A stretch of DNA of 64,000 nucleotides. It comes from Beverwykella pulmonaria. Lineage: Eukaryota; Ascomycota; Dothideomycetes; Pleosporales; Melanommataceae. Position numbers and translations under genes: made by a program. Each line of letters opens with the position of its first letter. The first letter of the stretch is position 1. The notes below the pieces were generated by a model, which did not search any database, was not told the DNA's origin, and saw only the letters and a list, made by a program, of their open reading frames with translations. The stretch covers positions 3,648,425-3,712,424 of the forward strand of contig BCHH01000002.1 of NCBI GenBank assembly GCA_001599595.1, written 5' to 3'. Shown here piece after piece: positions 6,745 through 53,646 of this stretch.

Positions 6745-7755
6745 TCACCTAAAGCTTGTAGCTAATCTGAGTGCCTCTGTCACAGCTGGAACATTCTTCT
6801 CTAACACTTCTATGATCTCGTTCCAGACCCGGAGAGCAATTTTTTTATTCACTTCCCCTGCAAGACTGGGTGCAATAGGCTGAACAATATCACTTTTCCA
6901 GAAACGACCATGGACTCGCTCGCCCTCAGTTGTTGCGCTGACAAGAGTTCGTGATCCTTGTTCTGGCGTGCGCATCATGATCGCCGCAATTATGGCAAGG
7001 ATGAGTTTGACCCCAGGAAACTGCGTCTCACGGGCAAGATCCGTTTTGACGAAACCTGGGCAGGTAGAAGTGATGATAACATCCTGTGATGAGACCATTT
7101 CAGCGAGCCTATTGGTAGCGTACATCAGGAAGAGTTTTGTGATGGTGTATTGCGAGTCGGGGTTGAAGTTCTCGGCTTGGTTGTAGGCTTGGAGGAGGCT
7201 GGGTTCCTGGAGGAGTGGGGTGAGAATTTTGGCATTCATGATGAGACCGGAGTTGACGAATTCCAGGACTGGTATCTTGCCAGTCAATGATTTCGACGCC
7301 TTGAGCTTGGGAAGCAGTAAGATCCCGAGTAGCATACTGGACAGGACATGGACTTGCAGATCCTCTTCCCAACCAAGCTTCGACTGCACAAATTTGACCT
7401 TGCGAACTCCGGCGTTCAGGACGGCAACGTTAAGATGATCAAGGCCTTCCGCACGCTTCAAAAAAGCTACAACGCTGTCGTAAGAGTTCATGTCCAGTTG
7501 CCAGACCTCCAGCTGATCCTTCTTTCCAATCCTGGTCTCGATGGCGGCCTTTGCTGCATCGCCCTTCTGCGGATCTCGAACAGCCAAGATGACTTTCGAG
7601 GCTCCCAGGGCAGCAAACTTGGAAGCCGCTTCAAACCCGATGCCAGAGTTGGCGCCCGTAACGACAACATTCTGACCAGCAAACGACTCGCTAACGACTT
7701 TCCCTGGGCTGATCCATTTCCCTTTGAGAACATTGAACAAAAATGATGCAGCCAT
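6745..7755 (-). CDS. Short-chain dehydrogenase/reductase (retinol-dehydrogenase-like)
   Basis: A single-exon 336-aa SDR. The N-terminal nucleotide-binding motif is VVVTGANSGIGFEAA (about residues 30-45), followed by VLNAGV for the NAG element. The catalytic Tyr-Lys pair is in SQYTITKLFLM (about residue 205), followed by STCPGFVKTDLA. These match the light-chain-dehydrogenase/WWOX-like group used widely in fungal lipid and secondary metabolism. The physiological substrate cannot be told from sequence. The ATG at 7755 gives a normal SDR length with about 30 residues before the Rossmann fold. No cluster partner is obvious next to it. Confidence 0.9.
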   Translation of the reverse strand: MAASFLFNVLKGKWISPGKVVSESFAGQNVVVTGANSGIGFEAASKFAALGASKVILAVRDPQKGDAAKAAIETRIGKKDQLEVWQLDMNSYDSVVAFLKRAEGLDHLNVAVLNAGVRKVKFVQSKLGWEEDLQVHVLSSMLLGILLLPKLKASKSLTGKIPVLEFVNSGLIMNAKILTPLLQEPSLLQAYNQAENFNPDSQYTITKLFLMYATNRLAEMVSSQDVIITSTCPGFVKTDLARETQFPGVKLILAIIAAIMMRTPEQGSRTLVSATTEGERVHGRFWKSDIVQPIAPSLAGEVNKKIALRVWNEIIEVLEKNVPAVTEALRLATSFR

Positions 7756-8620
7756 AGGGGTCCACGAAAGGTTAATGCTGTTCGTCCTGGTTGAGAAGAT
7801 AAAGTAGAGAGATAGAAAAAGGTTCTACCACTCTAGAGATGTGGAATTGGAGAATTGCTTGTTTGATGCATGAATGGTGCAAGACCAATGCAGATGTGAG
7901 GAAAAGAGAAGCGCTTCAGAGACTTGGAACGGGAATGAAATGATCAAGAAAGAAATTTAGGAATCAGACATATTTATATACTTAGCATCTCCTCATTAGT
8001 ACATCCGAATATGTTTCTGCTTCTCATGGTCGTTGATGTACTGTAATCGTAAATTCTGATGATGTTATGTGAAATCTCTAATACCGAAGAGGAAGCGGTA
8101 ACAACGGGCAGGATGCCGTCCATTTGCTCAAAAAGTGTAAATTCTCAGTGTCCACGTCCCAATCTAGGAATGGTGGTTTTGTTTACGGAAACCGTATTCC
8201 TTTCTGACGCCCCTCCCTAATCATCAAAAGTAGTCTCATAGATCGCGGGGACGGATTGCGGGTTTCGTCCGAACTCAAGGGATGATTTGTAAGATTACTG
8301 TCTTGATACAAATGAAGACCCGTGGCTAAGTCTGGTAGCGTCTCGCCGACGGTAATAGAAAATAGACTGATCGGAGGTGGTGGTGATAAAAAGGAGAGGG
8401 AGGGGAGAGAGAATGCGCTAACCTTTAAATGTGCAAGCGCCTTGGCACAAAATTGGCTGTGATGTCGACCTTGACATGTTGACAGTAACACGCGTATCCA
8501 GGTGAAGGCAGACGGAAACGCCCACCCCTCACCATGCTTGCTCTATCTACACCCACCCCTCGAAGCCGCTAAACTCCCTCCTAATCCATCGAGGACACCA
8601 CGTTTGGAGAGTCATCAAGC
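7756..8620. other. Intergenic between divergent SDR and LSM1 genes
   Basis: This is shared upstream space of two divergent genes, with AT-rich stretches around 7960-8060. I see no convincing coding region. A 102-codon minus frame at 8183-8491 has no domain character and is ignored. Confidence 0.5.
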
Positions 8621-20662: not shown

Positions 20663-21520
20663 CTTTCCATCTCTCGTATCCCATACCCTTGTATCACTCT
20701 TAAATCAAAAGAATATCTTTGCGGGCGCATGGGCAGACTGTATTCTACGCAATTTAAAAAGATGAATGTCGTTTGAAAGTACCTTGTATTGTTACCATCG
20801 TACATGTAATAATTACCATGTGAAAGACCATTGGCTAACATATGCGTGTTTGATAGGCCCAGTCCCCCGTTGCGGCGAGCAAGCTTTGAGCGAACCGAGG
20901 TCGATCTGGGATTGTGGTGTATTGCGGGGATGAGTCGGCCAGTGTGGCGTGGTGTGGAATGTGGGATGCACGTGGGAATGCGGAGTGCGTGGCATGTGAA
21001 AGCGAGTGAAAGATCACGCGAATCATGAGGATACGAGATGATAGAAACTTGGCATAAGCTTGTACAGGTCGGTAGCGAAACCGGCTTCACCTCGGACGTC
21101 AGGCTTTCATTAGCCTAGACACGTGATTCACCACTGTACAAGAAGTATTTGTGTCACAGCTTGAGCTGACGACCTTATGGCCAGTGCGGGTCAGCCTGCT
21201 AGTGGTGGCGATATGACGGGTCTCATGAAGTCCAGCTTTAGCTACTGAAATACGCCAACGCGGCCACGTGATATTGAATACTTGCAGCTCATCTATAATA
21301 CTGATAGACACCGTTCTTCGACTGTTCCACCTGTGCACATCTTACTTACATTGATATCTTACGCAATCCCCCTTATGCGACTCTTGCAGATTAACGATGG
21401 CGGCGACTTCAGCCTGGTCTAGCGTGTTGGCAACAAACATCCCACAGTTGCTATCCTTTCTCGCACTCGGGAAGAGATGAGGAGGAGGCTACCTTCAAAA
21501 CCTAGAGAATGGTACAGGCA
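20663..21520. other. Intergenic, no gene seen
   Basis: This is the 3' flank of malate synthase followed by non-coding sequence. A minus frame at 20521-21090 overlaps the malate synthase 3' end and has no domain character. The HET/TPR relic begins at about 21520. Confidence 0.45.
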
Positions 21521-23120
21521 AAACAAAGGTCGGCCATTACAAGATTCGCTTCTGCGGCAAGCAATCTGCTAAGGACGACCTCCATTTTTTCTGGGTAGAA
21601 TCGACATGTCAAGTAGCGCCGGGCTTTCAGAAGCTATCAACTCTATGTTACGTGTATCTGTCTCACGTTCTAGACAGTATCTCTAATAGAGGAAACCGGT
21701 TATCTCAAAGATGGACGTCGGCATTTAGGGAGAGCGGATGGTTCACCCGGGGCTGGACTCTTCAAGAGCTTACCGCTCCGGTATCAGTTGAAATTTTCTC
21801 AAAGGGGAGACGCTTCTTGGAGACAAACGATCGCTGGAACAGATTCTCCATGAGACAACAAAAATCACTGCCAAAGCCCTTCAAGGATGTCCTTTATCCC
21901 AGTTCAGCATCGATGTACGATTCCCTTGGGCCGCAAAACGCCAGACAAAACGCGAAGAGAATGCAGTATATTCTCTGCTAGGTATATTCCATACTCATAT
22001 ACCGTTGAGCTATGGAGAGGGTCGGGACAAGGCGTTCGCCCGGCTTCGGAAGGAAATTAAAATGTCTTCTAGCCTATTGAGGCGGCAGGGGCCCACGGGC
22101 TAGGTGGTGCAGGTAAGACTCAGTTACAGGTCGAATTTGCTCGACGTCACCAACACAATATCTCGTCGGTGTTATAGCATTACGGTAGCAACAAGAGCAA
22201 CCTCAAGCAAAAAATCGCCGATTGTGCGAGCCGCGTACTAGTAGGGCAGCTCGCCGAGACCAGCAGAACATGCGCTTATGGCCAGGGAGAAAACGAGGAA
22301 GGAGAGGAAGAGGAGAGGTAAATACTATGGGTGATTCATATATTAGCAATTGTATATGCGCAAAGGGGAAAGCTAGATCATGCAGAGAAGATGTACATGC
22401 GGGCGATGGAAGGGTATAATAATGCACTAGGAGCGGAGGATCTGTTAGCACTCTGCACAGTCAACAAGTTAGGCATTTTCTACTTCGATCAGGACAGATT
22501 AGACAAGGCAGAGGAGAGGTATACGCGGGCGCTAAAAGGACACAAAAAGGCACTTGGAATGAAGCGCAAGCCAACACTCACCACAGTCAATAACCTAGGC
22601 CTTCTCTACTTCAAACGCGGAAAGCTAAAAGGGAGAGCAGATGTACTCACAGGCGCTAGAAGGAAGAGTGAAGGCACTTTGTGCAGAGAGTCTGTCAACA
22701 CTTAAAACAGTCCACAACTTAGGCAGCCTCTACAAGGAACCGGGGCAAGCTAGACAAGGCAAAGAAGATGTACATTCGCGCACTGGACGGAAGGGAGAAT
22801 GCACTAGGAGCAGGGTACACGTCAACACTTGACACAGTCCACAACTTAGGCAGCCTCTACAAGGACCAGGGTAAGCTAGACAAGGCAGAGAAGATGTACA
22901 TGTGCGCACTGCCTGGATACGAGGAGGCGATTGGTTCCGAAAGCATCTCCACCTACATTCCAGCGCTACATACCATGAGCGCCCATGCTCCCCTCTTTGA
23001 AACTCAAGGTTGTGTAGATGGTTCCAGAATCTGGTACTCAAGGGCGCTCTCGGGCTGCTCAAAGGTGCTTTGGGAAGGTCCATTAGAAGTGCTAAGCTCT
23101 GCGCAACAGCCTCGCTAGAG
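21520..23120 (+). pseudogene. Decayed HET-domain/TPR gene lacking its NB-ARC region
   Basis: The first part (about 21520-22065) is a degraded HET domain. It contains HYKIRFCGKQSAKDD, CYVYLSHV and SGWFTRGWTLQELTAP, then, after a frameshift, YSLLGIFHTHIPLSYGEG. About 265 bp later a tetratricopeptide region (22331-23000) shows at least five 42-residue units of the type LGSLYKDQGKLDKAEKMYMC, with two more frameshifts (near 22640 and 22760). No P-loop or other NB-ARC sequence remains between them. The intact gene at 61659-64000 has the same HET motifs and domain order with NB-ARC in between. The simplest reading is a dead paralogue with an internal deletion. The HET domain normally triggers heterokaryon-incompatibility cell death. 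Confidence 0.75.
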
Positions 23121-23595
23121 ACAGCAGCAATGCTTCGATCGACAGAGTGTTGGCGCAAGAATATGCCGACGTCGAAGCCAATATTGATTTATTGCGCTTA
23201 GAGGAGGGGGAGGATAGCTGCGCGCAGCCTCTTTGAGGATCCATTCGACAAGGAATTGCTCTTGGTTTGGGTGTAATCCCTGCTGGTGCTTATAAGCTTG
23301 TACACGATTTATCACACCCTTAAGGCGGTTGCCTAGCATCAACTCAGGCATTGCCGCGAAGCTACCATCTGCTGGATTATGGCTGAACGCCTCTAAGTCA
23401 GAATCCATGCCAGAAAGGGGTGAATTCCGCATACACATTGAAGTCGGATACGAATAGGCCCTTGGCCCAGAACTCCGTACGCCTCGGCGGCAGCTCGTTT
23501 AGGTGGAAAACACCGGGCTTAAAAGCATTAATAGCTTGCTCTATCGCATGCTCACGAGGATCCATAGTAAATTGTATGGGGGTGGATGAAAACAC
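23115..23595 (-). mobile_element. Remnant of a pogo/Fot1-type transposase (N-terminal DNA-binding part)
   Basis: In two minus frames the sequence reads MDPREHAIEQAINAFKPGVF, then, after a break, AYKHQQGLHPNQEQFLVEWI followed by LKEAARSYPPPP. This is the helix-turn-helix (psq/CENP-B type) start of Tc1-mariner/pogo DDE transposases of fungi. The DDE catalytic part is absent. Just beyond its 5' end (23625-23665) a 14-mer TGCGCAGCTTCCCC occurs twice in direct orientation and could be a remnant of the element end. The fragment abuts the dead HET/TPR gene. Confidence 0.6.
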
Positions 23596-23599
23596 AATA

Positions 23600-24629
23600 T
23601 TTTGATTGGGTGGTGTTTTGACACGGGTGCGCAGCTTCCCCCCCGTATGCGCAGCTTCCCCGTAGCCGAGCTTATCACTGCGTCCTAATTAAGACAACAG
23701 CGTTTAGCCTCTTTCTCTTTCTTGCGAGAACTAGGTCTACTGAGCAACAGTATACTTAGACTCTCATCTTGGGTGGTCACATTGGCTAATTGGGCCATGT
23801 GATAATACAGGTATTTTCGGACAAGTTATCAGCGAGATTTGAGCCGATAGCCAGGATGATAAAAAAGAGTATCCGCAAAAGGGATTATAGACGGTTATAC
23901 TACCACAATGCGGGCGCCAACTTTACACTTCTCGCCACCACCGGGAGCAGTAGTGACCACAGCACGGGGTCGATCATCAACCAACCCAACTTAAAGACTC
24001 TTCTTATTCCATCTCCGACGAGGGGGAAGCAGCACCTCAAGAGCCGCTTTACATCTTCAAGACTCAAGTGCAGCATGAGCTGATGAGCCAATCTTCTTGC
24101 CGTCCCGCACGACGCAAAAGCTCATACGACTGATCACGTCATGCACACAGCCATATGAATAGAGACAGCTGATGGATCTGAGGCAATAGAATGGCGCACT
24201 TTAACCGGTCAACAAGTGCAACCCTCTCCTACAGTCAAACAAAAGGACACCGTTCGAGAGATGCTGTACATACCTGTAGTGAATTTACTCAGACCGTGTC
24301 CAAGATCTCGGCATAGAGTACAGACAGCGACCTGCTCTGACCGATCACAATTGCGATCCAATTTTGCCACTACTCAAACGCCTTCCGATAAAAACGAGGC
24401 TTGACGAGCTGAAGATTGATGCAACGCCCCTTCCTGTTCTTGCCCACAATTGGCTCGTTGGTTGACCTCTTCGAGACGCAGAGCGCCTCAATGTGCTTTT
24501 CCCTTCCCTCATGGCGATATCGATGAGCAGCCACAATTTAAGACGCTGTATACCCCAATGACGCTGTAGGCCACTATCAGTTTTTCCTCTCTTAATCTTT
24601 CGTTGTGTTGCGCAGAAACCTGAACGACG
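23600..24629. other. Intergenic upstream of the kinase-HET gene
   Basis: About 1 kb without supported genes. A 97-codon plus frame at 23790-24083 has no recognised domain. The region should contain the promoter of the kinase-HET gene. Confidence 0.4.
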
Positions 24630-26234
24630 ATGGACAGTTCGCAAGCGCCAGAAAGGGCGTCGAAGGCAAAAGAGCCCTCGCGACTCAGAAAATGGGCAAC
24701 TGCAATAGTCCGAATTTCCAAGAGGGAGGAGCATACTTTTCGGTCCGAGCCGCTTTCCTCTTCACAGAGCCCATTGCATCATAATCGAGATCGTGACTCG
24801 AACATCCAAAGTAGTGCCCAACCCGAACTTCAAACTTCTCAATCAAAGTGTGCACGTATCGACATTGTAAAAGACGGCGCCTCCGTCCCGGCCCGCTCAA
24901 TCAATACCACCAATGTAAAGGCAATCACTCACCATTCTTCAAGTGAGCTTCTTCCTGCAAGTCCACCATTTGTTAAAGACGCTGTTGCTGGATACACTCC
25001 GCCAATTGATGGAGCACGGAACGTTTCACCTGGATCTATCGACGTCAAACCAAATCCTCATGCATCATTATCGCGCGAAACCGACCTCTCATCCGTCAAG
25101 GCACTCGGCAATGAGATTTCGAAGATACTGGAAAGTCATGAAATTGGACTGGACGGTCCGAAATTACACTTCCCAGACTCGGAATACTCACTTTTGTTCA
25201 CACGCGACAGAATCGAGGAAGTCCTCCCGAATGCATCCCCCGAACTTATTAGCTTCATCTGTGACAAGGCGACCAAGCTATTTGCGATTACTGTATTGTC
25301 AAATCAACCAGAACTACTTCCCGCAATGAAGGCATTCTGCCGCCACAATGTGACTGACGCAAAATGTCTCCCCATCCAGCGGAAACTCACTGCAGAGGAC
25401 GAATGTGACCACTTGGGCGAAGTATCAGAATGTTCGGATGAGTGCATTGGTACAGAGCCTAGGCACTGCAAGCACGATGCATGGCTGGACGTCTTCCACC
25501 ACAAGATCTGGGACAGACTCAGTTTCAGTAACTTTTACGACAAGCAGTGGTCATTTGTGCTCCATAGCTTTCACCACGACACCTTCACGTACAGCCTGCA
25601 TGACTGGTGTATTTTGCCGTTCAAGAAAACGATCGAGAAGGATGGCAAGATTGGGCCGGGTCATTTCAGCACCGTGACCCAAGCATCGATGCTTGCGGGA
25701 TTTCAAGATACAATTGATTCAGTCAGTATACATGAATCACGTTCGAGATCTCGTCCTTCCACTAACATTAGTATTCTCAATAGAGAGGACGTGATACAGT
25801 CAAAGTTGCAATAAAAACCTTGCGCCCGCTTGAAGAAAAGGGGTACAACATCGTTGATGAATGGAACTCAGAAGCCAATGCACATAAAACACTTGATCGT
25901 CTGCAAAATGAGCATATAACTCGTGGTATTGCAGCTTATTGCCAGCATGGGAAGTACAACATCGTCTTAGAATGGGCGGATGGTGGCAGCCTCAGATCCT
26001 TCTGGAATGAGAACCCCAACCCTAAACTGTCAAAAGAGAGAATCATGGAGCTCTTGAGACAGCTTTATGGTCTAGCTGATGCTCTTGCTTCTATGCACCA
26101 TACGTCAGTGTCCTCTTCAAGAGGCGACACTAGAAGTAGGGGCAGCTCCGTTAGCTCTGCCTCTGGAGTTCATACCAGAGATTTCCAAAGAACAGGATAT
26201 TCCAAGAACAAGCCGATTGAGATCGAGGTTGATA

Positions 26235-26242
26235 GTTCCGAG
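26235..26242. repeat. Left 8-bp target-site duplication GTTCCGAG
   Basis: GTTCCGAG lies immediately before the CAGA start of the hAT element and is repeated exactly at 29235-29242. Eight base pairs is the usual hAT duplication length. Confidence 0.95.
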
Positions 26243-29234
26243 CAGACTTGGCAACAAACAAGCTCAACAAGCTAGCTTGATTGGCTTGATTGTTACTAAC
26301 AAACAAGCCAAACAAGCTGAGGAGTCGCTCCCTAACAATCAATCAAGCTGAGATTCGTCAGCTTGTTTGGCTTGTTTGTTACTTTTGTAAGTGTTGAGGC
26401 TGTAGAGATGTACGTAAAGTACGTATATCATTGATTTTCATAGTGTTGATATTCAATTGCCCCTATATCTATGGCCTCTAATTGGCTTACTAAGCGAGAC
26501 GCTAGTACTAACTAAGTAAGGTTGCAATTTCTTTGACACGCCAACCATCTCCGTCAACATCAACTGCACCTACCTGCCCTCACCTATTACACCACTTTTA
26601 CAGCAATTACCGCCGTCCTATCACTGCTAAAGACCTTACTAGGCATAAACGCTAACCTCTCGCAAGTATTCTTACAGCAGATTGAAAACGCGGGCTCACA
26701 GTTACCCTCCAACAGTGACGCAACTAATTACGCGACCAATGCGCCCTCCAAGCTCAATGCAATTAAATATCCACCTACTATAACACCTATACTGTTAGAT
26801 AATTCTATATACAAAGGCATTAACTAGAAGTGTATTCCACAGCTTTAAAAGCCTCTATATAACCCAAAGCAAAGCTATTAGAGCTAGGTTTGGTAGTATA
26901 GTTACCAAGTTTACCATTGCAAGCATCACCAACTCTACTAGCTCTGCAAATATTGCCACACCCATAAGGCCCCTAGAGGCCTATATAGGGCTAATTACTC
27001 TACAAGCTCTATTGCCAGGCATCTTGCTAAGCAGCAGAGAGGCTACAGAGTCAAAAAAGCTAGCTAAATTAACTTTCAGAAACTATTAGGTCAGCCCTTA
27101 GTGCTGGCCTAGATCCAGCAGCAACATAATATAGAGATTTGTCAAGACGTTGCCAATACGTTGGCCAATGCTTTTAAAAAGGAGTTATTTTAGCAGGCAG
27201 TTATTAACTTTGTAGTTTCCAATAATCAAGCTCTCTAAGTTATTAAGGCCCCAGCTTTTTAAGAGATAATTTAGCAGGCTAATCCTCTAGCTAAACACTA
27301 CTTATAGAGGAGCCACAACACCCTCTAGGACTACATTATTGCCAAATATAAGGCCTACTTGCCTTTAGTTATTAATTACCTCAGCCAGTCACGCTTGCTA
27401 ATACATATATTATTTAATAATTAGACATCAACTAGCAGTAAACGCGCTCTCACAGGGATCTACGTACATTATCTAGACGCTGCTAGAGTGTTACAAGACT
27501 ACGTTCTTAGGTTGCCCTCACTCCTGGGTCAACACTCTAGCAATAATATTGCTAGTGTAGTTAAAAAGACGCTTTAAACTTTTAGGATAACTCCAAAACG
27601 CCTTAGTTACTTTGTCCTTGACAATGCCCTAAATAACAACACTACAATAGAAGCCTTGGCCTTAGTGTACAACTTTAATCCCCAACACTAACAACTACAC
27701 TATTTATGCTATATCCTTAACCTAGGGGCGCAGCAAATTATATTTAGGAAGGACAGAGAGGCGTATAATAACTTAGACAAGAATATACTAGATAAGGAGC
27801 AGTTTATAGAGGAGTAGCAGAGGACTAGCCCCTTAGGTGTCCTACTTAACGTTATCACCTCTATATGTACTCCACAAGCCCGTTAGCTTCTTAAGGGCTT
27901 TTAAATTAATTACAACAACTACTTAGAAGACTCAAGATCCTTATTAGAGCCTATTAAGCCTGTTAAGACTTGCTAGAACTCCTTCTGCTTATGTTTTAAG
28001 CGCGCTGTTAAATTACGCAACCCAATTAATAACTACATTTAGTACAAGACTAATAAATACAACTAAGAGCTAGCAAAGCGTTGCAACTAGCTAGGAAATG
28101 TCCCAAAGAAGCCAAGGCTCTTTATTAAGGAGGGCGGCCTTACTGCTAAGGACTAGGCTACAATATTAGAGTACATACAAATATTGGCGCTGTTTAAAGA
28201 AGCTACCCAAGAGCTTAAAGGCAGAGGCAAGGCTGGCTTATCTAGAGCCATATAGGAAGTTATCCCAACATTTAATTGGCTTATTAATTAGCTCTAGGAC
28301 ACTATTAAGAGGCTTAATAACGCAAAGTTTAATAATATTAACAGACTAGAGGACCACCTACTTATCAATTGCAAAGCAGCTCTTAAGAAGCTATTGGAGT
28401 ACTACAATAAACTTTACAGTACCCCAGCGTACTATGCTGCCTGTAGGCTCCATCTATAGTACAAGAACTACCTAGAAGAAGCCTAGCGTGTACCTAAGGA
28501 TTACAATAAGCAGCTCTACAGCGCTAAACACCTATACAAGGGCTGGCTTAAAGAAAGCTACTGTTAATTTTAACTGCTCTAGAAGGCCTTCAAGGACTCT
28601 GCTAGGCCTTTAAGTGCTTCTTAAGCACCTCTACCAAAGAAAGTTTGCCTTAGTTACTCTACTAGTAGAGCTAACTTTATAAGGGCTACACTTAAGAGCG
28701 CTGAGAGCTCTTAGGAGAGTGATGATAAGTTTAATTACTAGAAGGCTGAGTTGCCTCTTAGCAAGAGCAAGTCATTGGCCAAGGACCTAATAAAGTACTG
28801 GCTTACAAAGGCTGAGCAGTATCCCTTGCTCTTACGCTTCGCCCTTAATATATTAAGTATACCTGCTGCAGCCACAGACTGTGAGAGGACCTTCTCAGAG
28901 CTTGGAGACTTACTAGAAGTACAACAACTCCGCATGAAGCCTAACTTGCTCTTAGCGCTCCAGAGTCTCCAGAGTTGGAAGCGCATTAGCTTGAAGCCTC
29001 AGAAAAATCAATCAGGAGTCACCTCCAAGGTCCCCATCCAGATAGATACAATATACACGATTGATGATGTGCTCACGTGACTGGGCAATTCACTTCCTAA
29101 TAAATAAACAAGCCAAACAAGCCGCCAGGCAAATATTTTCCTAACAAACAAGCCAAACAAGCCAGCCCCTTGATTGCTAACAAACAAGCAAGCCGGAGGG
29201 GCCAGCTTGTTTGGCTTGTTTGTTGCCAACTCTG
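26243..29234 (+). mobile_element. hAT-superfamily DNA transposon, transposase dead
   Basis: The 2,992-bp element starts CAGACTTGGCAACAAACAAG and ends with the complement of CAGAGTTGGCAACAAACAAG, i.e. 20-bp terminal inverted repeats with one mismatch. It is flanked by GTTCCGAG. Both ends carry further copies of AACAAGCCAAACAAGC in direct and inverted orientation. Coding sense on the plus strand shows a relic hAT transposase: YFVLDNALNNNTTIEALA near 27610, then a region with many TAG codons. The C-terminal dimerisation domain at 28751-29080 stays open (AATDCERTFSELGDLLEVQQ). Stops sit where Gln or Trp codons are expected, as CpA-to-TpA change on both strands would produce. It is therefore probably non-autonomous and was moved by a transposase encoded elsewhere. 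Confidence 0.93.
28751..29080 (+). pseudogene. hAT transposase C-terminal dimerisation domain, surviving open part
   Basis: This 109-codon open frame is the end of the transposase relic. It contains SKSLAKDLIKYWLTKAEQYP, LNILSIPAAATDCERTFSEL and LRMKPNLLLALQSLQSWKR, the conserved hAT C-terminal dimerisation signature. Upstream catalytic and zinc-finger parts are broken by stops, so no functional enzyme is expected. Confidence 0.88.
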
Positions 29235-29242
29235 GTTCCGAG
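29235..29242. repeat. Right 8-bp target-site duplication GTTCCGAG
   Basis: This is an exact copy of the left duplication, immediately after the CTCTG end of the element. The kinase-HET reading frame resumes at 29243. Confidence 0.95.
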
Positions 29243-32200
29243 GGAAAGAGCCTCGAGCCGGTGGAAATTCAGTCCCCTCATATCGTCATCACAAACGACC
29301 CAGTCCAGAACGATACCAATCATGACAATCTAATCATTCGACCACTGTCACGACAATCAACGAACAGTAAAGAGAATTGGCGTCATGGAGACATCAAGCC
29401 AGAAAACATACTTCGATTCGAAGCTGATGGCACTTGGCTAGGGACCCTCAAGCTTGCAGACCTTGGTAGAGCTAAACAACGCTACCTTGCCACCCGGGAA
29501 CTGCCTGACAAGGAAATCGACCGCTGGCGTACCAAGCCATACGAAGCTCCGGACATCTGGATCAGCAAAGGGCAAGAGTCGATGTCACGGTTGTATGACT
29601 GCTGGGCTATGGGCTGTGTATTTTTCGAAGCAATTGTTTGGATGCTCTATGGCCAGCAAGCGATCTGGAATTTCGATGTGACGACGGCCAAGGCTCAGAA
29701 GGAGGGTACTCCTTATTGGTCAAGAGTGGGCGAATCGGGTGCCGAAGTCAGTGTGCTAGCAAGAGGCTGGATGGACTACATCTTGGAGAAAGATCCAGAA
29801 TGTAATCCAAAAGCAGGGACCGTGTTGGGCGATCTCATGAGACTGGTGAAAGGGAAACTCCTCCAAATTCACCTACCCTTCAACTCTGATGTCTATGAGC
29901 AGGGGTATCGTACAAATGCCGAAGACATGCGCGAAGATATTGCAGCTATACTTGACAGAGCGGAAGCCGAAGAAAACGGCAAAACAGACGATCGATACAT
30001 ATTCACCGGGTCAGATCGGGAAAAGGTCCACCATCCCTCCATTGACCCTGACTCTACACCAGCCCAAGAACCAAAGAACGCGTCGAACTTCCTTGCTTTA
30101 CCTCATGCCCGTCAAAAGAACTCGCTCGCTGTGCCATCCCCGAAAGGAGGCGGTGGAGCGTTGACCACACGCAGCCAAAACCAATACACCCACTCCCTCA
30201 ATGACGTGTGGAAATATGTGGACGATGATCAATTTGCTATCTCGGTCCTGCAACGCAACAAATTTCCCTTCTCAACCCTGTTCTCAGAGGCCACATCCAC
30301 CATTTGCAATCCTTGCCAGGAAGTCGGGCGTCATTTCCAACACTTCACCTTTGATCGATCAATGCGAGACTTGAGGAAAGCTGTGACAACTAAGTCCTGC
30401 GATCTCTGCTCATTGCTCTACTACACGGCGAAGAATTCCAAGATTGCAAGCATAGCAATAGTAACATTCTCTACGTCTCTAGCAGGGGTGAGAATAAATG
30501 AGAATGGCAAAGACAATTTGGTCTTGAGGTTCTGCCGGTCTTGGGGTAAGTGTCCTTGCACAAGTCACCTTTGATTTATTGCCCGTCTTTTTTGATTTCT
30601 CAACCACATGAGACGATCCTCAATATCTCAATCGGCAAAATCTTACACTGCACCCCAGTGATTCCCATTGCAGAGTCACTGTATATGCGACTAATAGCTG
30701 ACCTATCTTGCAGATTTGCCAGCCAGCATGATTAAAGCACCATATCCCCCAATTGGTCTCCCAAGATTACCAAATGCTGGAAGTAAACAACACGTAAAAA
30801 TTCTTCGCGCATGGTTGAAAGATTGCGACGAACGTCATGAGTGTGGCCGGGCCGATTCAGGTCGATATTGTCCTAAACGGTTGTTGGCTGTTGGTTCGGA
30901 GCAAGAACATCCTCGATTGGTGGAGACTGCGCAGCTTGCTGAGAACGAACGAGAAGACATGAGGTATGTAGCGCTATCACACCCCTGGGGAGATCCGACC
31001 CGTCACGAACACTTTCGTACTACCACGGACACGATATCGGACTACCTGGACTCAGTGATATTGGACGACCTGCCACAGACCTTCAAGGATGCAGTCAAAA
31101 TCACGAGGGATCTGAAAATTAAATACATCTGGATTGATTCCATCTGCATCCATCAAGGGGAAGATGGGGACTTCAACGAACAGGCGCCATTCATGCAAGA
31201 CATATTTGGCTCTGCCTACTGTGTGCTTGCTGCGAGCAGTGCCGAGGGAATGACCTCGGGATTCTTAAAAGATGTAGAAGCTAAGGCAGTAGCTATCCGA
31301 GCGCAATTCGATCCGACTCCGGGCACACTATTCATTTCTCAATCAGTCGATGATTTCCAGAAAGATGTGCTCGAGAGTTGTCTCAATAAACGTGGCTGGG
31401 TCTTCCAGGAAAGAGCTCTTGCACGTCGGACAATATTCTTCGCAAAGACTCAAACTTATTTCGAATGTGCAAATGGTGTTCGATGCGAATCTTTTAGCAA
31501 ATTAGAAAAGTAAGTCTCTTCTATGGCATCTTACGACGGCAAAATTTGCTTGCTAATCATGATAACAGCTCGGAGGAAGCCTTTCTCGGCGATTCAGACT
31601 TTCCGAGATACGTAAAGCAAGAGAAGAACAAAGGTGCTCAACAATACCTTTTCGAAAGCTTGTACCGGAAATACTCTCGTCTAGAATTCTCAGAACATAC
31701 TGACAAACCCATTGCAATCTCTGGGTTGGAACAAAGGCTATTGAAAGCGTTTGAAGACCGTGGTGGTGCAGGCATCTTTGAGAAGTACTGGGGCCGATGT
31801 CTACTATGGAAGAGAGCATCCAAGGATCACCCACTCGAGCGGATCAATTTCCAGCCTCCGACCGACAAAGAAACTTCAAAATCTGGCACGAAGAAACCCA
31901 GAACAACCTACAAATTGAGGCCTCCTCCATCGTGGTCTTGGATGTCCTATATCGGCAGCATAGACTATGTTGAGCCTCCTCGTGCAGGTGTTGTTTGGAA
32001 TGTTGAGGAAGTCCAACTTCACTACACCGGAGACCGGACGACGGCCTGGCTTTCTGCTACTGAAAACATGATTATAACTGCTATAGCGAGAGACTTCACT
32101 ATTGGAGAGGATACTCATGAAAATGAGACGATGCTGACATATGACGATCAGGCATGGGAAAAACGAGCGAACAAAAAGTGCATCATCATTGGGTCGATGA

Positions 32201-32346
32201 AAACTACAACCGTGCACTATGTCCTCATCGTTAGTCCAATGGAGTCTGTGGATAGATTTGCGTATGAACGTATTGGTGTTGGATATCTACCCGAAAAGTT
32301 TATCAGTGCACTGAAAGAGCAGGGTGAGACTGTGACTGTTCTATAG

Positions 32347-33067: not shown

Positions 33068-34090
33068 TCAGTAGATGAGATCCCTATCCCAATCCCCGTC
33101 ATTCAAATTCCTCTCCCTAGCCCAGGCTTGGATCGCTTCGAAATTACGACACACATGCGTCGACCCCATATTGATAAAGTTAATGCCAGGTTTACCTTGT
33201 GGCAATGTGAAGGAGAGCTCTGTAGCATCCTTCCAGTTCCAGTGCAAGGTCGCCACATCAGAATAACACATTATGCCCTGGCGAATGCGGTCGATGCAAT
33301 GCTCTACACTTATCAGTCGTCGTACCTTCAAAAGAGGGGACCTCTCACAGGCAGGATACATACCAAAGTGAAGGACGGCGGCTCGATCGGCGGTTCCATT
33401 TGCGTCCATAATCCCCCCGTCGGGAAAACGATCAGGGTACAAACTTTTGCGAAGAGTATTCTTTAAAGGTTAGTGGATGCAAAACTCTTGCACGCGAAAT
33501 CGTACGTACAAGACAATGGAGCTGGTGAAAGACTTCAAGCTGTACCATGTACTTCCCCGCGTGTTTTCCACTCTCTAGTTTCACTGTTTGGTTGGGGAGT
33601 CTTTTGGCGGACGTTTCGTCTAGGAGTGTTCTCGCCGTTCCTGGTATCATTATTGAGAGGCTAATCTTGTGGAAGAGGACGATTTCATACCAGCGTACAA
33701 GTCATCCCACAACTGGTCCAATTCATCCGTCGGTGTGCCCTGGTAAGGTGAGAAATTCCACTGGCCATCGGAAAAGACTTTGACTGAGTGTTCTACGATA
33801 TCGTTCGCTGGAGCTGTGTATATGATTAAAAACATTTTGAACAACAAAGACGTCCAGAACTTACAGAACACAATTTTCACAATGTTTTGAGGATAGTTGA
33901 ACGCAGCGAAGAGGAGAAAGAGGACAACAAAAGCATTGAGAAGGTATGATAGGATGTTGACAATTCCATACATCTTCAACCACCTATCTTCTCTCTCCAA
34001 CTCCAACTGCAACATACTGTGAGTCTCGACACCGTTCAGCAACCCTACACGGCTCTCGTCGTGAGCGGGGGCTTCTGTACTTTTTCCCAT
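33068..34090 (-). CDS. UstYa-family oxidase (DUF3328), candidate RiPP cyclase A
   Basis: UstYa-family proteins catalyse oxidative cyclisation of ribosomal peptides such as ustiloxins, and occur in other mycotoxin pathways. Five exons (34090-33865, 33813-33691, 33640-33510, 33460-33364, 33303-33068) with introns of 48-60 nt join in frame to 270 aa. After a short cytosolic N-terminus comes one membrane helix (YGIVNILSYLLNAFVVLFLL, about residues 41-60), then SPANDIVEHSVKVF. The two family signatures follow: HQLHCL near residue 155 and EHCIDRIRQGIMCYSDV near residue 195, then TLHWNW. These give the paired His/Cys motifs thought to bind copper. The first intron has no stop and is a multiple of three, so it is easily mistaken for coding sequence. 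It diverges from a second family member. Confidence 0.9.
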
Positions 34091-34832
34091 GGTGAAATTG
34101 CATCCAACAAAAGAGTGTTGGAAATTGACAGATTCAAATTGTTTGCAGCGCTCATCTACAGAACAATCTGCAGGTTGTTGATATTGGTAAATACCCAAAG
34201 ATTTGTCGTTACATTGTAAACACTGTTATCAACGTTACGGATTGCTTTTCGCCAGGGATCACGCAGTAGTGACCAAGCACACAAACCTGCATATATTTTC
34301 TATCCTTGGCGTTAGACCTTAGTTCCAATCCTACAGAAACTACCGATCACAAGCCGGCGGAGGGTACTTAGGAATGGTCGAATGATCTCCATCTGTACAA
34401 GTGATTGGTAAGTTCTGAGAGTCATAGTAGCATAAATGCCCGACGAAGTAACCCTGGTACATCCTTAGAACCTGATAACCTGCAGAAAATTATGCATTAT
34501 TACTTACTAAATTGAGGAAATGCGAACCCCAAATGCAGTCGGGTCCTACCTACTTTCCTTTGGCGGGGTACTCAGAACCTTAGCTTCACATAAAGATTGA
34601 GTATCCTTGAGCGGGTGCCCATATACTTGTCTTGGTTAGACATACAAAGGAGCTCATTTGCAGTGATGCACCAATGCGGTGCACAGGCCACCTAGGTCGG
34701 TGCAACACTAAAAAGAGCACCTTCGTAGGCCAACATCACAAGATAAGGCCAAGTATCGAGAGAAACAACATATTCTGGGCATTTTTCCATAGTGCATCGA
34801 TTCCCTCATCTTTTAAAAAGTCAAGATTCAAG
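34091..34832. promoter_or_regulatory. Shared upstream region of two divergent UstYa-family genes
   Basis: This 742-bp region separates the start codons of the divergent UstYa genes and should hold both promoters, which would favour joint expression. No particular factor site was recognised with confidence. Confidence 0.5.
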
Positions 34833-35793
34833 ATGGTAATCATGTTCTCAGTATTTTCTAGAGTGGATCCAATATATAGACTTCTATCTCAACTCGAAAG
34901 TGATGAAGAGGGCAAAGAAGATGTCACACATCCAGTTCGGCCGCTCATATCTCGTTCATCGTGGCACTTTCATGGGCTACTTCTCCTAGTATCTTCGTCC
35001 CTCTTCATCTCAAGTCTTTTCAATTACAAATCACCCTCGATTTACGGTATCGAGATAGCTACTGCAAAATGGTGTAGGTGAAAAACCTGTCAATCCTCTT
35101 TATAATTTAATGACCACGAGTAAAGCAAGATCACTCTCCTCCCTCTCCACCCACCCGACCAAATTCCGCGGCTCCTTTCTCGCCCCTTCAAAATTTCGAG
35201 GTTCCTTACCGGAAGCCAACAAGGAATGGGAGCGGTTCACCTTCAATCCTTACATCGATGGTACCGCGATAGTCCTCGGTGTTACCAAGGAGGATATCCG
35301 TAAGAGCAACAAGATGGCCGATGACGACTGGTTTAACTCTACAGTCGTACTCAACGAAGGAAACAACAAAGAAGAGAGAAGGTATATGGCCACACTCGAA
35401 ATCTTCCATCAAATGCATTGTCTTGATATGCTTCGTAAGTCGACATTCGGGGAGAAATACAAAGACGATGTGTCCCGAAAACACGGCCAGACACAGTTGC
35501 AGAGCCATTTGGGTAAGTCTCGTATATTCTTCTTCCTACAATCCCCCCCCTAAATTTTCTCGACAGACCACTGTATCGAAATTATCAGACAAGTCATCAT
35601 GTGCAATAGCGATCCAGGACTTATCACTTTCCACTGGGTCAAGGATAATCCTGTTCCGTATCCGGACTTCAACACCTGGCATCAGTGTCGAGATGCGGAT
35701 GCTACGTTGGAGTGGGGACGGAGGAATGCGTGGCCTTTGAAAGACTTCGTTCGGAAGAACAGGCTTGTGGTGGAGATGCCTGACGCGCCTTAG
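34833..35793 (+). CDS. UstYa-family oxidase (DUF3328), candidate RiPP cyclase B
   Basis: This second UstYa-family gene diverges from the first. Best-fitting exons are 34833-35073, 35126-35512 and 35567-35793 (284 aa). The first intron uses GTAGGT and an AAAG acceptor and is the least certain junction. A membrane helix (FHGLLLLVSSSLFISSLF) follows a 45-residue N-terminus. The lumenal part has KFRGS twice, then HQMHCLDMLRKS and DHCIEIIRQVIMCNSD, the paired signatures of the family, then TFHWV. A C-terminal WHQCRDADATLEWGRRNAW is typical of the branch. Having two UstY homologues beside one repeat precursor fits dikaritin clusters, where paired members act on Tyr side chains. The precursor candidate begins about 1 kb downstream on the same strand. 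Confidence 0.88.
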
Positions 35794-36786
35794 AAATAGA
35801 TTTCAATAGCGAACAATGGTGCTAAGGTAATTTGATCTAGGTTTACGTATGTCTGCGGCTCCTAACGGCTTTTGACGTGTTACACATTTTAGATGTCACA
35901 GTTATGGATGATTGAGAATGGATTCTAAGTGTATCATTTCAGACGAAGCAGGTCTTTTGGCGAATAATGCATCGAATGCTCAACTGCCGACGTGCCGCTC
36001 TGTTCGAAAAAGGCTCCCAACCCAGGCAAGATCAAATGTTCTAGACTTTCATCTTTACAACGGGGACAAGTTGCGATTTCACACACCCAGCGCTGCAAGC
36101 CAATATAGGGATGGGTTGGAGATTGGTCTAGGCTTAAAGAGGTAGGTAGACCATCACGCCCAGTGGATACCAGCGACTACCCAGCGAACATCTGTGAGCC
36201 CCCAGGGAACACTAGTATATGCCAAGCAACCACCAGTGAACGAACAGTCTGTTGATAGAATGTCAATGGTTACTTTCGAGCTCAACGGCACATCGTTGAT
36301 GTAACAACACAATGCCATAGTATACTTTCTTGCATTCCCTTATCTTCTTTCACTCTCCTCATTAGGAAAATGGCGTGTTATCTGCTGTTACACGGCCATG
36401 TGATACATCTTCGGTCAATGGCTGATCGTGTTGATCTGCAGCTACCCAACGTTGTGATTCAAGCTTCAAAATTTGCAATGTTCTAGGATATCCTGTACTA
36501 GCGAACACCTAGGACGGTGAAAGATAAGCTGACGTGCATCTTCACCATGTCAATCACTGCACTCCGAATCCTACCATGCGGATATCATGATTCTCGAATT
36601 CTCGGATACTGCCCCACTTACTTGCTCTGTTATATTCCCTCTCCTATAACCCCGCATAAAACAAATGTGCCAGTGTCCCATCCTTCATATAAAGCCATTC
36701 AACCATCCTATCCCATTCCCAAGCACCCTCCATCTTATTCCTCTTAGCATCTACCCTTTACCTCACAAAATCCCGCCTCTTCCACC
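35794..36786. other. Intergenic upstream of the precursor gene
   Basis: About 1 kb with no recognised gene. A run of C/T-rich sequence with the repeated motif CATCCT/CATCTT (36680-36780) lies just before the precursor ATG and is likely its core promoter and 5' leader. Confidence 0.45.
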
Positions 36787-37105
36787 ATGAAGCTCCACAA
36801 CAGTCTCAGCCTCATCCTGGCTGCTCTCACCTGTAGCACACTCGCGGCACCAATCAGTGACAAATCCCCATTTCCCCCCATCACCACTACCCGCCTGCTA
36901 ACCCAGTTCAATAGCAGCTGCCAACGACGTTGATGCTCTAGAGACTCGTATCTACTACAAAACTACCGACAGTTTTGAGAAGCGAGACAACGACGTTGAC
37001 GCTCTCGAGACTCGCATCTACTACAAAACCACCAACGACGTTGAGAAACGTGATAACGACGTCGACACTCTTGAGACGAGAATCTACTACAAATCGGAGA
37101 AGTGA
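36787..37105 (+). CDS. Secreted repeat peptide, candidate dikaritin-type RiPP precursor
   Basis: Two exons, 36787-36856 and 36915-37105, are joined across a 58-nt intron (GTGACA donor, GCTAAC branch, ATAG acceptor) in phase 1, giving 86 aa. Residues 1-22 are a signal peptide (hydrophobic LSLILAALTC, then STLAAP). The remainder is three near-identical 22-residue units, exactly 66 nt apart. Each has an acidic lead, DNDVDALETR or a variant, then IYYKTT (IYYKSE in the last). Units 1 and 2 end in EKR, the Kex2 cleavage site. Signal peptide, repeats, Lys-Arg spacing and two adjacent UstYa genes match the ustiloxin/asperipin precursor plan. The predicted core is the Tyr-Tyr segment; its exact limits are inference. 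A GTGAGT at 37101 could be a further donor that alters the last residues. I know no matching product. Confidence 0.85.
36926..37102 (+). repeat. Three 66-nt coding repeats of the precursor
   Basis: Units begin with GACGT(T/C)GA at 36926, 36992 and 37058, a spacing of exactly 66 nt, so 22 codons each. Differences between units are mostly at third codon positions (GCT/GCT/ACT after GAT/GAC; CGT/CGC/AGA), which suggests the amino-acid sequence is under selection. The last unit is cut short at its C-terminal end. Confidence 0.9.
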
Positions 37106-38814: not shown

Positions 38815-39387
38815 ATGTACGCCGCCATTCTCGCCTCCGTCCTGGCCTTGAGCGCCGGTGCTACCGCCGCACCCCTCGTCGAGCGCCAAACCACCCTCTC
38901 GCCCTGGCAAGTCACCGGCGTAGCAGTCTTCACTCCCTCTGGGCGTCCGGGCTCCTACCCCTGGCCGACTATCACAGCCAACGTGACGGACCCCAACGCC
39001 CTCGTTCTCGGCACCTCGCCCGAAGGCACCGAGATCTCTCTCCCTGCCGGGGGGCTCGCGGTGAACTGCCAGGCGAAATGGTTCACTGGCACCGAGCCCA
39101 CCAACCATATCTGGCCCTGCGATGCGTCGGGCGAGGGCGACGGATACTGGACGCTGGAAATTGTCGACAATGCGGGGTGGTCGACAACCAACTTTGATTT
39201 GAAGATTACAAGGGTTGCGGATGCACTGTATCGTGGAGCAGAGTATAAGAAGACGTATGTGGCTACGGGGCACTTTGAGCTTGGTGTTAATCTGGGTGGG
39301 CAGTGTGGAGGTAGCGGTGTCTGCTATTGGGGATTGGCGCAGGGGAGTAACCCCGTGCTGATTCAGCCAGCGGAGGTTGCCCCTTAG
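38815..39387 (+). CDS. Small secreted protein with four cysteines
   Basis: A single-exon 190-aa protein. Residues 1-19 form a clear signal peptide (MYAAILASVLALSAGATAA), followed by PLVERQ, a typical short pro-segment. The mature part is Gly/Thr/Pro-rich, with four cysteines in NCQAKWF, WPCDAS, GQCGG and VCYW, enough for two disulfides, and one NVT glycosylation sequon. There is no enzyme motif, membrane segment or GPI signal. It is a candidate apoplastic or cell-wall protein, possibly an effector. Family and role are not recognised. The ATG at 38815 is preferred over in-frame codons further upstream because it gives the signal peptide directly. Confidence 0.85.
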   Translation: MYAAILASVLALSAGATAAPLVERQTTLSPWQVTGVAVFTPSGRPGSYPWPTITANVTDPNALVLGTSPEGTEISLPAGGLAVNCQAKWFTGTEPTNHIWPCDASGEGDGYWTLEIVDNAGWSTTNFDLKITRVADALYRGAEYKKTYVATGHFELGVNLGGQCGGSGVCYWGLAQGSNPVLIQPAEVAP

Positions 39388-47627: not shown

Positions 47628-48619
47628 ATGGTCGCTTTCAATCCCGCAAAGGACATCCCCAGTCTCGCTGGCAAGGTCATTCTGGTGACCGGCGGTAGGC
47701 TCCACTTCCTCAATTGCATGTCGATGTAAAAGATAGCTAATATAAGGATGATACAGGTAACGCAGGCCTCGGCAAGCAAACAATCCAATACCTCGCCGGT
47801 CATGCGCCTACGCGCATCTACCTCGCGGCGCGAACACCCTCCAAGGCTACCTCTGCCATCGCCGATATCAAAGCCGCGGTGCCTAACGCCTCCATCGAAC
47901 ACTTGCCCCTCGACCTCACGTCATTTGAATCCATCGCCGCGGCGGCCAACACATTCAAGGCCAAAGAATCGCGCCTCGACTTGTTGATAAACAATGCAGG
48001 CGTCATGGCCATGCCCTACAGCCTCACGAACGAAGGCTACGAGATCCAATTCGGCACAAACCACGTCGGGCACGCGCTATTGACCAAACTCCTCCTTCCT
48101 ACCCTCCTCGAAACAGCCGCGCGACCTGGCTCCGACGTCCGCATCGTCAATCTGAGCAGCATGGGGCACTTCCTCGCTCCCTCGGCAGGAATCATCTGGG
48201 ACCAAGCCGCGCTGGAAAAGGACAGTACATGGGCGCGCTACGGGCAGTCGAAACTCGCAAACATCCTCTTCACCAAAGAACTCGCGGCCCGCTATCCGCA
48301 GATCACAAGTGTAGCGATCCATCCGGGCGTTATTCTCACGGACTTGTATTCGTCATTTGCAAAGGGGTTTTTCATGAAGTGGGCGACGTGGTTTTATGGG
48401 CTGTTAATGCCCATTTTGCCGGGCCACTTTGGCGATACGAAGGGCGGCGCGCTGAATCAGACGTGGGCTGCGACGGTGGATAAGAACACGTTGGTGAATG
48501 GTGGGTATTATATTCCGGTGGGCAAGTTGAGTGCAGGGAGTGGGAAGGCGAGGGATAAAGGGTTGGCGAAGAAGTTGTGGGAGTGGACAGAGGAGGAGCT
48601 GGGGAGGCATGGGTATTAG
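47628..48619 (+). CDS. Short-chain dehydrogenase/reductase
   Basis: Two exons, 47628-47694 and 47757-48619 (62-nt intron, phase 1), give 309 aa. The nucleotide-binding motif VTGGNAGLGKQTI spans the splice site, so its two halves are in different exons. LLINNAGVMAMP, VNLSSMGHF and the catalytic YGQSKLANILF (Tyr-xxx-Lys) follow, then VAIHPGVILTDLY. This is the NAD(P)-dependent retinol-dehydrogenase-like branch. An in-frame ATG at 47523 would add 35 hydrophobic residues (a possible membrane anchor). I prefer 47628 because MVAFNPAKDIPSLAGKV is the usual start of this fungal subgroup. The substrate is not predictable. Confidence 0.9.
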
Positions 48620-51799: not shown

Positions 51800-53646
51800 G
51801 ATGGTGGTTGCATGCCAAGGTAGGTTGCTGATATATAGCGCAAGCCTTCCAACCTTGCCGAAGACTTTAATACCGCACTAGCACGTGGCTGTAACTTAGC
51901 TTTAGCTTCTTTACCAAAATCAAACTAGCGTTTGGTAATTTATATCGGAAGCTTAATCTTCATTATTAATTGCATTATAAGCCCAGCGCTATCATAAGAA
52001 ATGGAAGGAAAGAATAAATGAAGAGCAAAATGGCAAATTCCCACTTTTATATAGTAGCCAAGAAGTGGAGCGCATTTGCTACCTAAAACAACACAGAGTA
52101 TATCATTGGACAACTGAACACCGACTTTTCGAAGTCACCCAAAGGTTGATATCTATCGATTTTTCATCGAAATACTACTCAAATGCCTTCTTAAATCTGT
52201 TTTCTAAAGTCCCTTTCTCGCTGCAGGTGTGTGTTGTGGCAGGCGCGCTGCCATCTTGAGTCTTTGACCTGAAATTTCTTCAAAATGGTCTGTGCGCCAT
52301 TCAGATTTTCGCGTTCGGTCGAAGGCACACTACTACAGAGATTTGGAGGCAGCCCCGTTACTCCTCTTTCTCGCAATCCATAGGGCATGGCCAGTCCTTA
52401 TACGAAATCTCTCTCTCCTCTGAGCAGAGCCACGGCTCCTACCCGACAGAGCACCGGCTCTCGACACCTACGCACGCGACAGAGCACCGGCTCTTTACTA
52501 CAGTCGCTACAGCAAAGCAACGATCTCGATAACCTGAGGACATCCCCTGCCTCAACAAAGCAAGAACTAGCTGCCGCTATGACAGCTACCACAGCCGCCA
52601 CAGTAAAGCAACAAACTCAATAACCTGAGAGCACCCCCTGCCTCATACAAATTAACAAAAGGCTGCCTCTCTACGCCTAGCTGATTTGTTTAGGATGCTC
52701 TTTGAGTATTACTACACCGACTTAATTACAAATACATAATCATAACCTGGAATTCAGGCAGAGTGTAGTTATGCTATACAGTTATCAACATAACTTAAGA
52801 TGGATACAAAATTGTTACAAACACAACCCAGGAACTACTGACGACAAGTCATACTGTCCGTAATAGTAGCGCGGCAAGCGACCCGATAAAAAGGCCATAA
52901 GACTACGACATGGGGGACGATGCCCCACCATCAGATAGTGAATCAAACTGAAATAATACTGTAAGCTACAGTATTATGTGATGGATTAGTGGATCTGTTG
53001 GATCTGTAAATCACAGAGCCACAGAGCCACAGAGCCATATCTTGGCCAACAGATCCAGTCGAATATATAAACTTTACGAATCTCCTAGATAGTCTGCATA
53101 GTCAATTCAATCGTATCCCCTGCATACATCTGTTCTGACATTGACGCCGCTCACAGTGAAGCCTCTCGCCAGTCAGGAATTTATTGTCTATCACATTACC
53201 CTCTCCTTGCTTCGACATCAACCTTGTATTCACCCCTCTCACCCTCCACCACCTAGGAGAACTCAGCCCTACCTGTTATGTGATGATGCCACAGGATTCG
53301 GGACCCACCATTAACATATACTTTGCACGCCGGAGGTGTAAGACTCCTGCTGTAGCTACCTGCTTTAGAGCCCTAGTAAAGAGGGATTAGTAGAGTAAGC
53401 GCAGTGCTTCATAGCCTAATGGGCTGAACAAGCATCATTGTATTAGCCTAGCAGCCGATAGTATCAATGTGAATGATTGAAGTATATATATATCATTAGA
53501 CATTTGTTTTAATCACAAGATCAGTTGCATTAGTACTTCCAAATCTGTGTTTCAAGCCAAGAGCTGTTGGGCTGAGCATTACATTCGTTCAGAACATTAC
53601 TGTACGACTTCAAGAGTCTTGCGGAGTGGAGGGAGAAGGCACGTGT
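51800..53646. other. AT-rich intergenic with repeats; possible LTR remnant
   Basis: About 1.8 kb. An internally repeated patch at 52430-52660 contains CGACAGAGCACCGGCTCT twice and ACCTGAG(G/A) plus CCCCTGCCTCA twice. A perfect 11-bp hairpin lies at 52953-52977. From 52996 to 53140 the sequence starts TGTTGG, has three tandem CACAGAGCC units and a TATATAAA, and ends ACA, like a short LTR, but no 5-bp duplication flanks it. No gene is supported. Confidence 0.4.

Follow-up and report, generated by a model that had tools for sequence, protein, structure and literature searches.

Two divergent UstYa genes and a Kex2 repeat precursor form a probable dikaritin-type locus in Beverwykella pulmonaria

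The stretch of DNA analyzed here, referred to as the window, is the 64-kb segment G000:C2:3648425-3712424 of the Beverwykella pulmonaria genome (45.6 Mb in 31 contigs). Three genes occupy positions 33068-37105 of the window (Table 1): two genes of the UstYa family (DUF3328), named UstY-A and UstY-B, and a gene for a repeat protein with Kex2 cleavage sites, referred to as the precursor. The UstY genes are divergent, with start codons that point apart across 742 bp, and the precursor gene begins 993 bp beyond the end of UstY-B. The splice sites of these gene models were picked by eye from the GT-AG rule and the reading frame. An earlier description made from the letters of the DNA (the sequence-only reading) had placed here a back-to-back, divergent UstYa pair with paired HxxHC motifs and a precursor about 1 kb further on, and this is borne out by the spliced models and by the matches to the Pfam UstYa profile. 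Its outer coordinates are also exact, 33068 being the last base of UstY-A (minus strand) and 37105 the end of the precursor stop codon.

Both UstY proteins score far above the Pfam UstYa cut-off of 25 bits, UstY-A with 158.3 bits (E = 3.5e-46, profile positions 8-220 of 220) and UstY-B with 150.2 bits (E = 9.9e-44, profile positions 9-219 of 220), and in each a single hydrophobic helix is seen by eye near the N-terminus. The spliced proteins carry the motifs HQLHC and HFEHC (UstY-A) and HQMHC and HLDHC (UstY-B). In both genes the second of these motifs is created only by splicing, as a phase-1 intron lies within it at the same codon (H-x-intron-x-H-C). Of the 58 UstYa matches in the genome, 14 begin at profile positions 160-168, which are taken, without an alignment, as the site of this motif intron; if so, the intron is common in the family of this genome, and this supports the UstY gene models. 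The first splice of UstY-B is in some doubt, alternative in-frame donor/acceptor pairs being present. The two proteins share 34% identity over 125 aligned positions and are therefore diverged paralogues, not the outcome of a recent duplication. For UstY-B, no solved structure was matched at E values up to 1. The stretch between the UstY genes and the promoter of the precursor gene have no more words in common than chance would give (12 9-mers versus 13.8 expected, four 10-mers versus 3.3 expected, and no 11-mers or 12-mers), so that there is no sign of a shared regulator.

The spliced precursor has 85 or 86 residues, the length being set by the choice between two in-frame AG acceptors that are 3 bases apart, and its signal peptide is followed by three units of 22, 22 and 17 residues, two of which finish in EKR. 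The sequence-only reading of a secreted repeat protein with two EKR ends is thus correct, whereas its third unit is shorter than the 22 residues that were assigned to it, its length of 86 residues is one of two options, and the core, given as IYYKT-type, reads IYYKS in unit 3. The units have N-D-V-D-x-L-E-T-R-I-Y-Y-K in common and differ in their tails; between N2 and K14, 12 of 13 positions are identical across all three, and YY is present in each. The between-unit nonsynonymous divergence (dN) is 0.103, 0.096 and 0.062, versus a synonymous divergence (dS) of 0.82, 1.92 and 1.27 (22, 14 and 14 codons, respectively). As the changes between the units are mainly silent, the peptide was apparently kept unchanged as the silent sites drifted, the codon numbers being small. 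The precursor protein belongs to no Pfam family, and a genome search (E up to 10) finds no second copy or relative, the sole match being the precursor itself.

The repeat exceeds chance when judged by a self-match score over the ORFs (open reading frames), a measure that carries no calibrated E-value. The precursor ORF scores 27, and the top score in 40 first-order Markov resamples of the 64-kb window is 8, with no ORF at 9 or above having at least two KR sites. Also in the real window, with a low-complexity filter applied, no other ORF combines a score of at least 9 with at least two dibasic sites.

Table 1. Features of the locus and repeat precursors or candidates at other UstYa loci. Unless a contig (C) or locus (L) is given, positions are those of the window.
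Feature	Position	Strand	Remarks
UstY-A gene	33068..34090	-	270 aa; four introns (49-60 bp, GT-AG, reading frame maintained); Pfam UstYa
UstY-A exons	34090-33865, 33813-33691, 33640-33510, 33460-33364, 33303-33068	-	
Divergent intergenic stretch	34091..34832	.	742 bp; candidate promoter for both UstY genes
UstY-B gene	34833..35793	+	About 284 aa; two introns; splice model; Pfam UstYa
UstY-B exons	34833-35077, 35130-35512, 35567-35793	+	
TATAAA box	36688..36693	+	99 bp ahead of the precursor start codon
Precursor exon 1	36787..36856	+	Signal peptide MKLHNSLSLILAALTCSTLA (by eye), then API plus one base of the following codon
Precursor intron	36857..36917	+	Phase 1, 61 bp (GTGACA...TAGCAG); acceptor possibly 3 bp earlier
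Precursor unit 1	36920..36985	+	ANDVDALETRIYYKTTDSFEKR; Kex2 site KR at end; exon 2 begins at 36918
Precursor unit 2	36986..37051	+	DNDVDALETRIYYKTTNDVEKR
Precursor unit 3	37052..37105	+	DNDVDTLETRIYYKSEK and stop codon (37103-37105)
L020 precursor	L020 6096-6665; C3 ~344.9-345.5 kb	-	211 aa spliced; 14 YPESYKR units of type NDEAIAYPESYKR
L031 precursor	L031 6308-6791; C17 ~317.8-318.3 kb	+	137 aa spliced; five units with VYPDTGLYAENG (VYPDTGLYAE), type DRDEDIVYPDTGLYAENGKR; last without KR
L013, weak candidate	L013 1-426; C2:703702-704127	+	Two VNLLAPRIG units, one KR; at edge of scanned stretch
L027, weak candidate	L027 3122-3313; C4 ~151.1-151.3 kb	+	Three GVDTVAKFF-type units; RR, not KR; signal exon untraced

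These features are best explained by a cluster for a dikaritin-type RiPP (ribosomally synthesized and post-translationally modified peptide), a reading to which we assign a probability of about 0.8. Dikaritins are described as RiPPs that arise from Kex2-processed repeat proteins and are cyclized by UstYa homologues (PMC10512285). The locus has the corresponding sequence features, namely Kex2-separated repeats (three units, two KR sites), two UstYa genes of which the nearer is adjacent, the HxxHC(x)nHxxHC arrangement and conserved tyrosines in the core. The assignment rests on the gene structure, the intact motifs of the copper-binding type, the low between-unit dN/dS and the parallel loci in the genome that are described below. 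In a published survey, Tyr is reported in 65.6% of the repeats of precursors beside DUF3328 genes, versus 38.2% elsewhere (PMC7329392).

We infer that the three genes act jointly. The precursor would enter the endoplasmic reticulum, Kex2 would cleave behind each of its two KR sites, and Kex1 would probably trim the products, generating three related peptides. UstY-A and UstY-B would be anchored in the membrane with their domains in the secretory lumen, and each may be able to hold two copper ions via its HxxHC(x)nHxxHC motif, as suggested by the cyclochlorotine hydroxylase CctR, for which this motif is reported to bind two copper ions per monomer and alanine mutants of its His and Cys residues are reported to be inactive (PMC12435403). 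The two enzymes would oxidize I-Y-Y-K such that one or both of the Tyr phenol oxygens become joined to a β-carbon of the core (of Ile, Tyr or another residue), and proteases encoded elsewhere would trim the peptide ends. As a best guess, the core would consist of I-Y-Y-K and one or two further residues, since this segment is invariant, holds the tyrosines and comes after the invariant E-T-R. For the predicted Kex2/Kex1 peptide DNDVDALETRIYYKTTNDVE, the calculated [M+H]+ values are 2374.1045 (linear), 2372.0888 (-2H) and 2370.0732 (-4H); the corresponding values are 586.3235, 584.3079 and 582.2922 for IYYK, and 687.3712, 685.3556 and 683.3399 for IYYKT. It is possible, if rather doubtful, that the three genes, with housekeeping Kex2/Kex1 and general proteases alone, make a new IYYK-type scaffold, a mono- or bicyclic di-tyrosine peptide that also bears lysine. 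UstY-A and UstY-B would then share the work between them, perhaps in a heterodimer with a common copper site, and no tyrosinase, reductase, transporter or dedicated protease would be required.

The parallel loci come from the 58 UstYa matches, which were merged by eye into 31 loci. The flanks of 15 of these were scanned (ten with 8.5 kb per side, four within single 10-kb stretches, and the window); for two loci of the first group (C2:698829-705201 and C4:333086-337704) the scan covers the outer parts and not the middle, and, as it uses stop-to-stop ORFs, it is blind to single-core precursors and to units split by introns. A clear Kex2 repeat precursor, with at least two KR sites, is found at three of the 15 loci, being the window, L020 (contig C3) and L031 (contig C17). 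The L020 precursor is near the UstYa matches at C3:347347-348774, with a P450 gene at C3:350398-351687, less than 2 kb from these matches, and the L031 precursor is near two UstYa matches at C17:315790-316942. All three precursor genes have a phase-1 intron after the signal exon (splice sites by eye). When the weak candidates of L013 and L027 are also counted, at most five of the 15 loci have a precursor. Rows at L014 (two), L016, L021 and L026 (three) were discarded as short or low-complexity repeats or minisatellite with fewer than two KR sites, and the count also leaves out rows at L020, at L027 and in the window that echo a repeat in antisense or in a shifted frame, as well as two weak window rows (the TPR ORF at 22723 and the ORF at 52401). 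Two tyrosinase matches elsewhere in the genome lie close to UstYa genes, one (C3:4549360-4550006) about 0.5 kb from the UstYa match C3:4550520, where the scan finds no repeat precursor, and the other (C20:10504-11165) about 3.2 kb from the match C20:14397; these are candidate ustiloxin/phomopsin-like loci.

Several observations weigh against the dikaritin assignment. A clear precursor is missing at 12 of the 15 scanned UstYa loci (ten if L013 and L027 count), and a UstYa gene alone is therefore no predictor of a precursor; UstYa proteins are also reported to serve non-RiPP pathways (PMC12048977). The precursor of the window has only two full units and a partial one, the third unit having no Kex2 site and continuing to the stop codon; the published mean is about five repeats per precursor (PMC10512285). 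The window contains no match to tyrosinase (38 in the genome, all on other contigs) and none to S41 peptidase (eight genome-wide, one on this contig at a distance of about 1.4 Mb). Of its 88 stop-to-stop ORFs with 120 or more residues, 37 were run against Pfam, a set from which genes split into short exons could escape, and none of them matches a model for P450, methyltransferase, tyrosinase or a transporter. There is no P450 match in the window among the 92 of 342 genome candidates that were scored, and no isoflavone-reductase-like gene among the 37 ORFs; the genome search for transporters, with nine of 560 candidates scored, says little. The sequence-only statement that the usual extra enzymes are absent from the neighbourhood is upheld for tyrosinase and S41 peptidase, which are unmatched in the window; for P450 and methyltransferase it holds among the candidates and ORFs covered.

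The frequency of UstYa loci without a clear precursor (10 to 12 of 15) also favours a different explanation, in which the precursor would be processed into unmodified linear secreted peptides, which might be signals, repellents or effectors, with the UstYa pair acting on another substrate. A survey of 1,461 fungal assemblies reports 7,878 such precursors, of which 1,758 are beside DUF3328 genes (mean 1.7 each), leaving 78% without such a neighbour (PMC7329392), so that linear products are common. However, no other substrate-making gene is seen close to the UstYa pair, the nearest Pfam-bearing ORFs being HET, kinase and PIP5K; in addition, the core is Tyr-rich, and precursor and UstYa genes occur together at further loci of the genome. 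We consider this explanation unlikely.

The locus could also have arisen by decay from a larger dikaritin cluster, its other enzymes and most of its repeats having been lost, as the small number of units (two full and one partial) and the failure to find the usual tailoring enzymes would suggest, and it lies in a GC dip, with a raised TpA/ApT ratio (1.6) at 26-28 kb of the kind that repeat-induced mutation would leave. This is very unlikely, since the three reading frames are intact over seven modelled introns, the motifs are intact, the between-unit changes are mainly silent, and the TpA/ApT ratio of the locus itself (32-38 kb) is 0.76-0.85, close to the 0.79 of the window. A precursor for an alpha-factor-type mating pheromone would be built in the same way (signal peptide, repeats and KR sites) but is hardly credible here, since the core is, to our knowledge, unlike known pheromones and DN, rather than an XA or XP dipeptide, comes after each of the two KR sites. 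Annotated pheromone precursors are, moreover, reported to have no DUF3328 neighbour, three exceptions aside (PMC7329392).

The genes around the locus are of mixed kinds, and the HET and UstYa genes, together with the short introns, would fit a filamentous ascomycete. Upstream are malate synthase, TPR, kinase-like and HET ORFs, and downstream are a small protein without a Pfam family, a PIP5K ORF and others. The small protein (190 aa; 38815-39387, plus strand; signal-like start by eye) is found 1.7 kb past the precursor and is kept out of the locus. Short-chain dehydrogenase ORFs are present at 6748-7824 and at 47741-48616 (the latter about 10.6 kb past the precursor), and an ORF with PP-binding (carrier) and reductase domains at 959-2998, about 30 kb away; because of their distance, we think that these ORFs do not belong to the pathway. 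The HET (30698-31513), kinase-like (25784-26275 and 29174-30574) and TPR (22322-23118) ORFs form a row across 21481-32346 that recalls fungal self/non-self recognition genes. A few kb from the locus, at 26000-30000 of the window, the GC content falls to about 0.41 and the TpA/ApT ratio is 1.3-1.6 (the window mean being that given above), resembling repeat-induced mutation.

The sequence-only reading had presented the locus as dikaritin-type and as a minimal cluster. The first is retained as the best explanation (structure, motifs, dN/dS and parallel loci), and the idea that the locus is unusual is unsupported. In particular, the argument that a minimal cluster is something special fails, because tyrosinase genes are rarely near such precursors, being counted 341 times (4.3%) near the 7,878 of the survey, where they gather somewhat in the presence of DUF3328 (PMC7329392), and because asperipin-2a has a cluster of only four genes. 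The core sequence (RIYYK, IYYKT or YYKTT) was not found for fungi or similar peptides in open-access main texts (by title), a result of little weight as supplements were outside its scope. This is a real, well-formed locus of standard dikaritin layout with its own core sequence, and the kind of system is already known. It is good material for a product hunt and will not surprise a specialist. Only five dikaritins are listed as reported in a 2022 review (PMC10512285), compared with the 1,758 precursors that are predicted next to UstYa genes. Few loci would cost less to express in full than one of three genes, which makes this a convenient case for the joint action of two UstYa enzymes without a tyrosinase. 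Several loci of this kind, differing in their cores, seem to be present in the genome, so that a comparison within one strain would be possible.

Several dikaritin loci per genome are also described for Venturia inaequalis, where nine clusters were called by DUF3328, a signal peptide and kexin-site repeats (PMC9632046). CctR resembles UstY-A and UstY-B in having DUF3328, the HxxHC(x)nHxxHC motif and one membrane helix, its domain being lumenal, and differs in that it is shown as a homodimer and hydroxylates a non-ribosomal peptide (PMC12435403). The ustiloxin B and phomopsin systems share with this locus the repeat precursor, the KR sites and the UstYa-family proteins (two for ustiloxin), and a Tyr-Ile ether is described there (PMC7329392). 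These systems need a tyrosinase and further enzymes, whereas the window has no tyrosinase or S41 match, which argues against the ustiloxin/phomopsin subtype only. The epichloecyclins of Epichloe (gigA) also come from a repeat precursor, and a link between the N-terminal Ile and an internal Tyr is described as likely (PMC9233826); they differ in being cyclic nonapeptides with another repeat, and Lys methylation is reported for them (PMC6514808). Asperipin-2a (apr) of Aspergillus flavus is similar in its Kex2 repeat precursor, its UstYa-family oxidase, its small tyrosinase-free cluster and the YY in its core (FYYTGY); its four-gene cluster has one UstYa homologue, compared with the two UstYa genes here (PMC6514808). 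The present locus also differs in its IYYK core, and no such reductase or transporter as in the asperipin-2a cluster is found among the 37 of the 88 window ORFs. In asperipin, ether links from Tyr side chains to β-carbons generate Tyr ether bicycles (PMC6514808), and by analogy asperipin and the epichloecyclins would be the nearest chemical models for the product of this locus.

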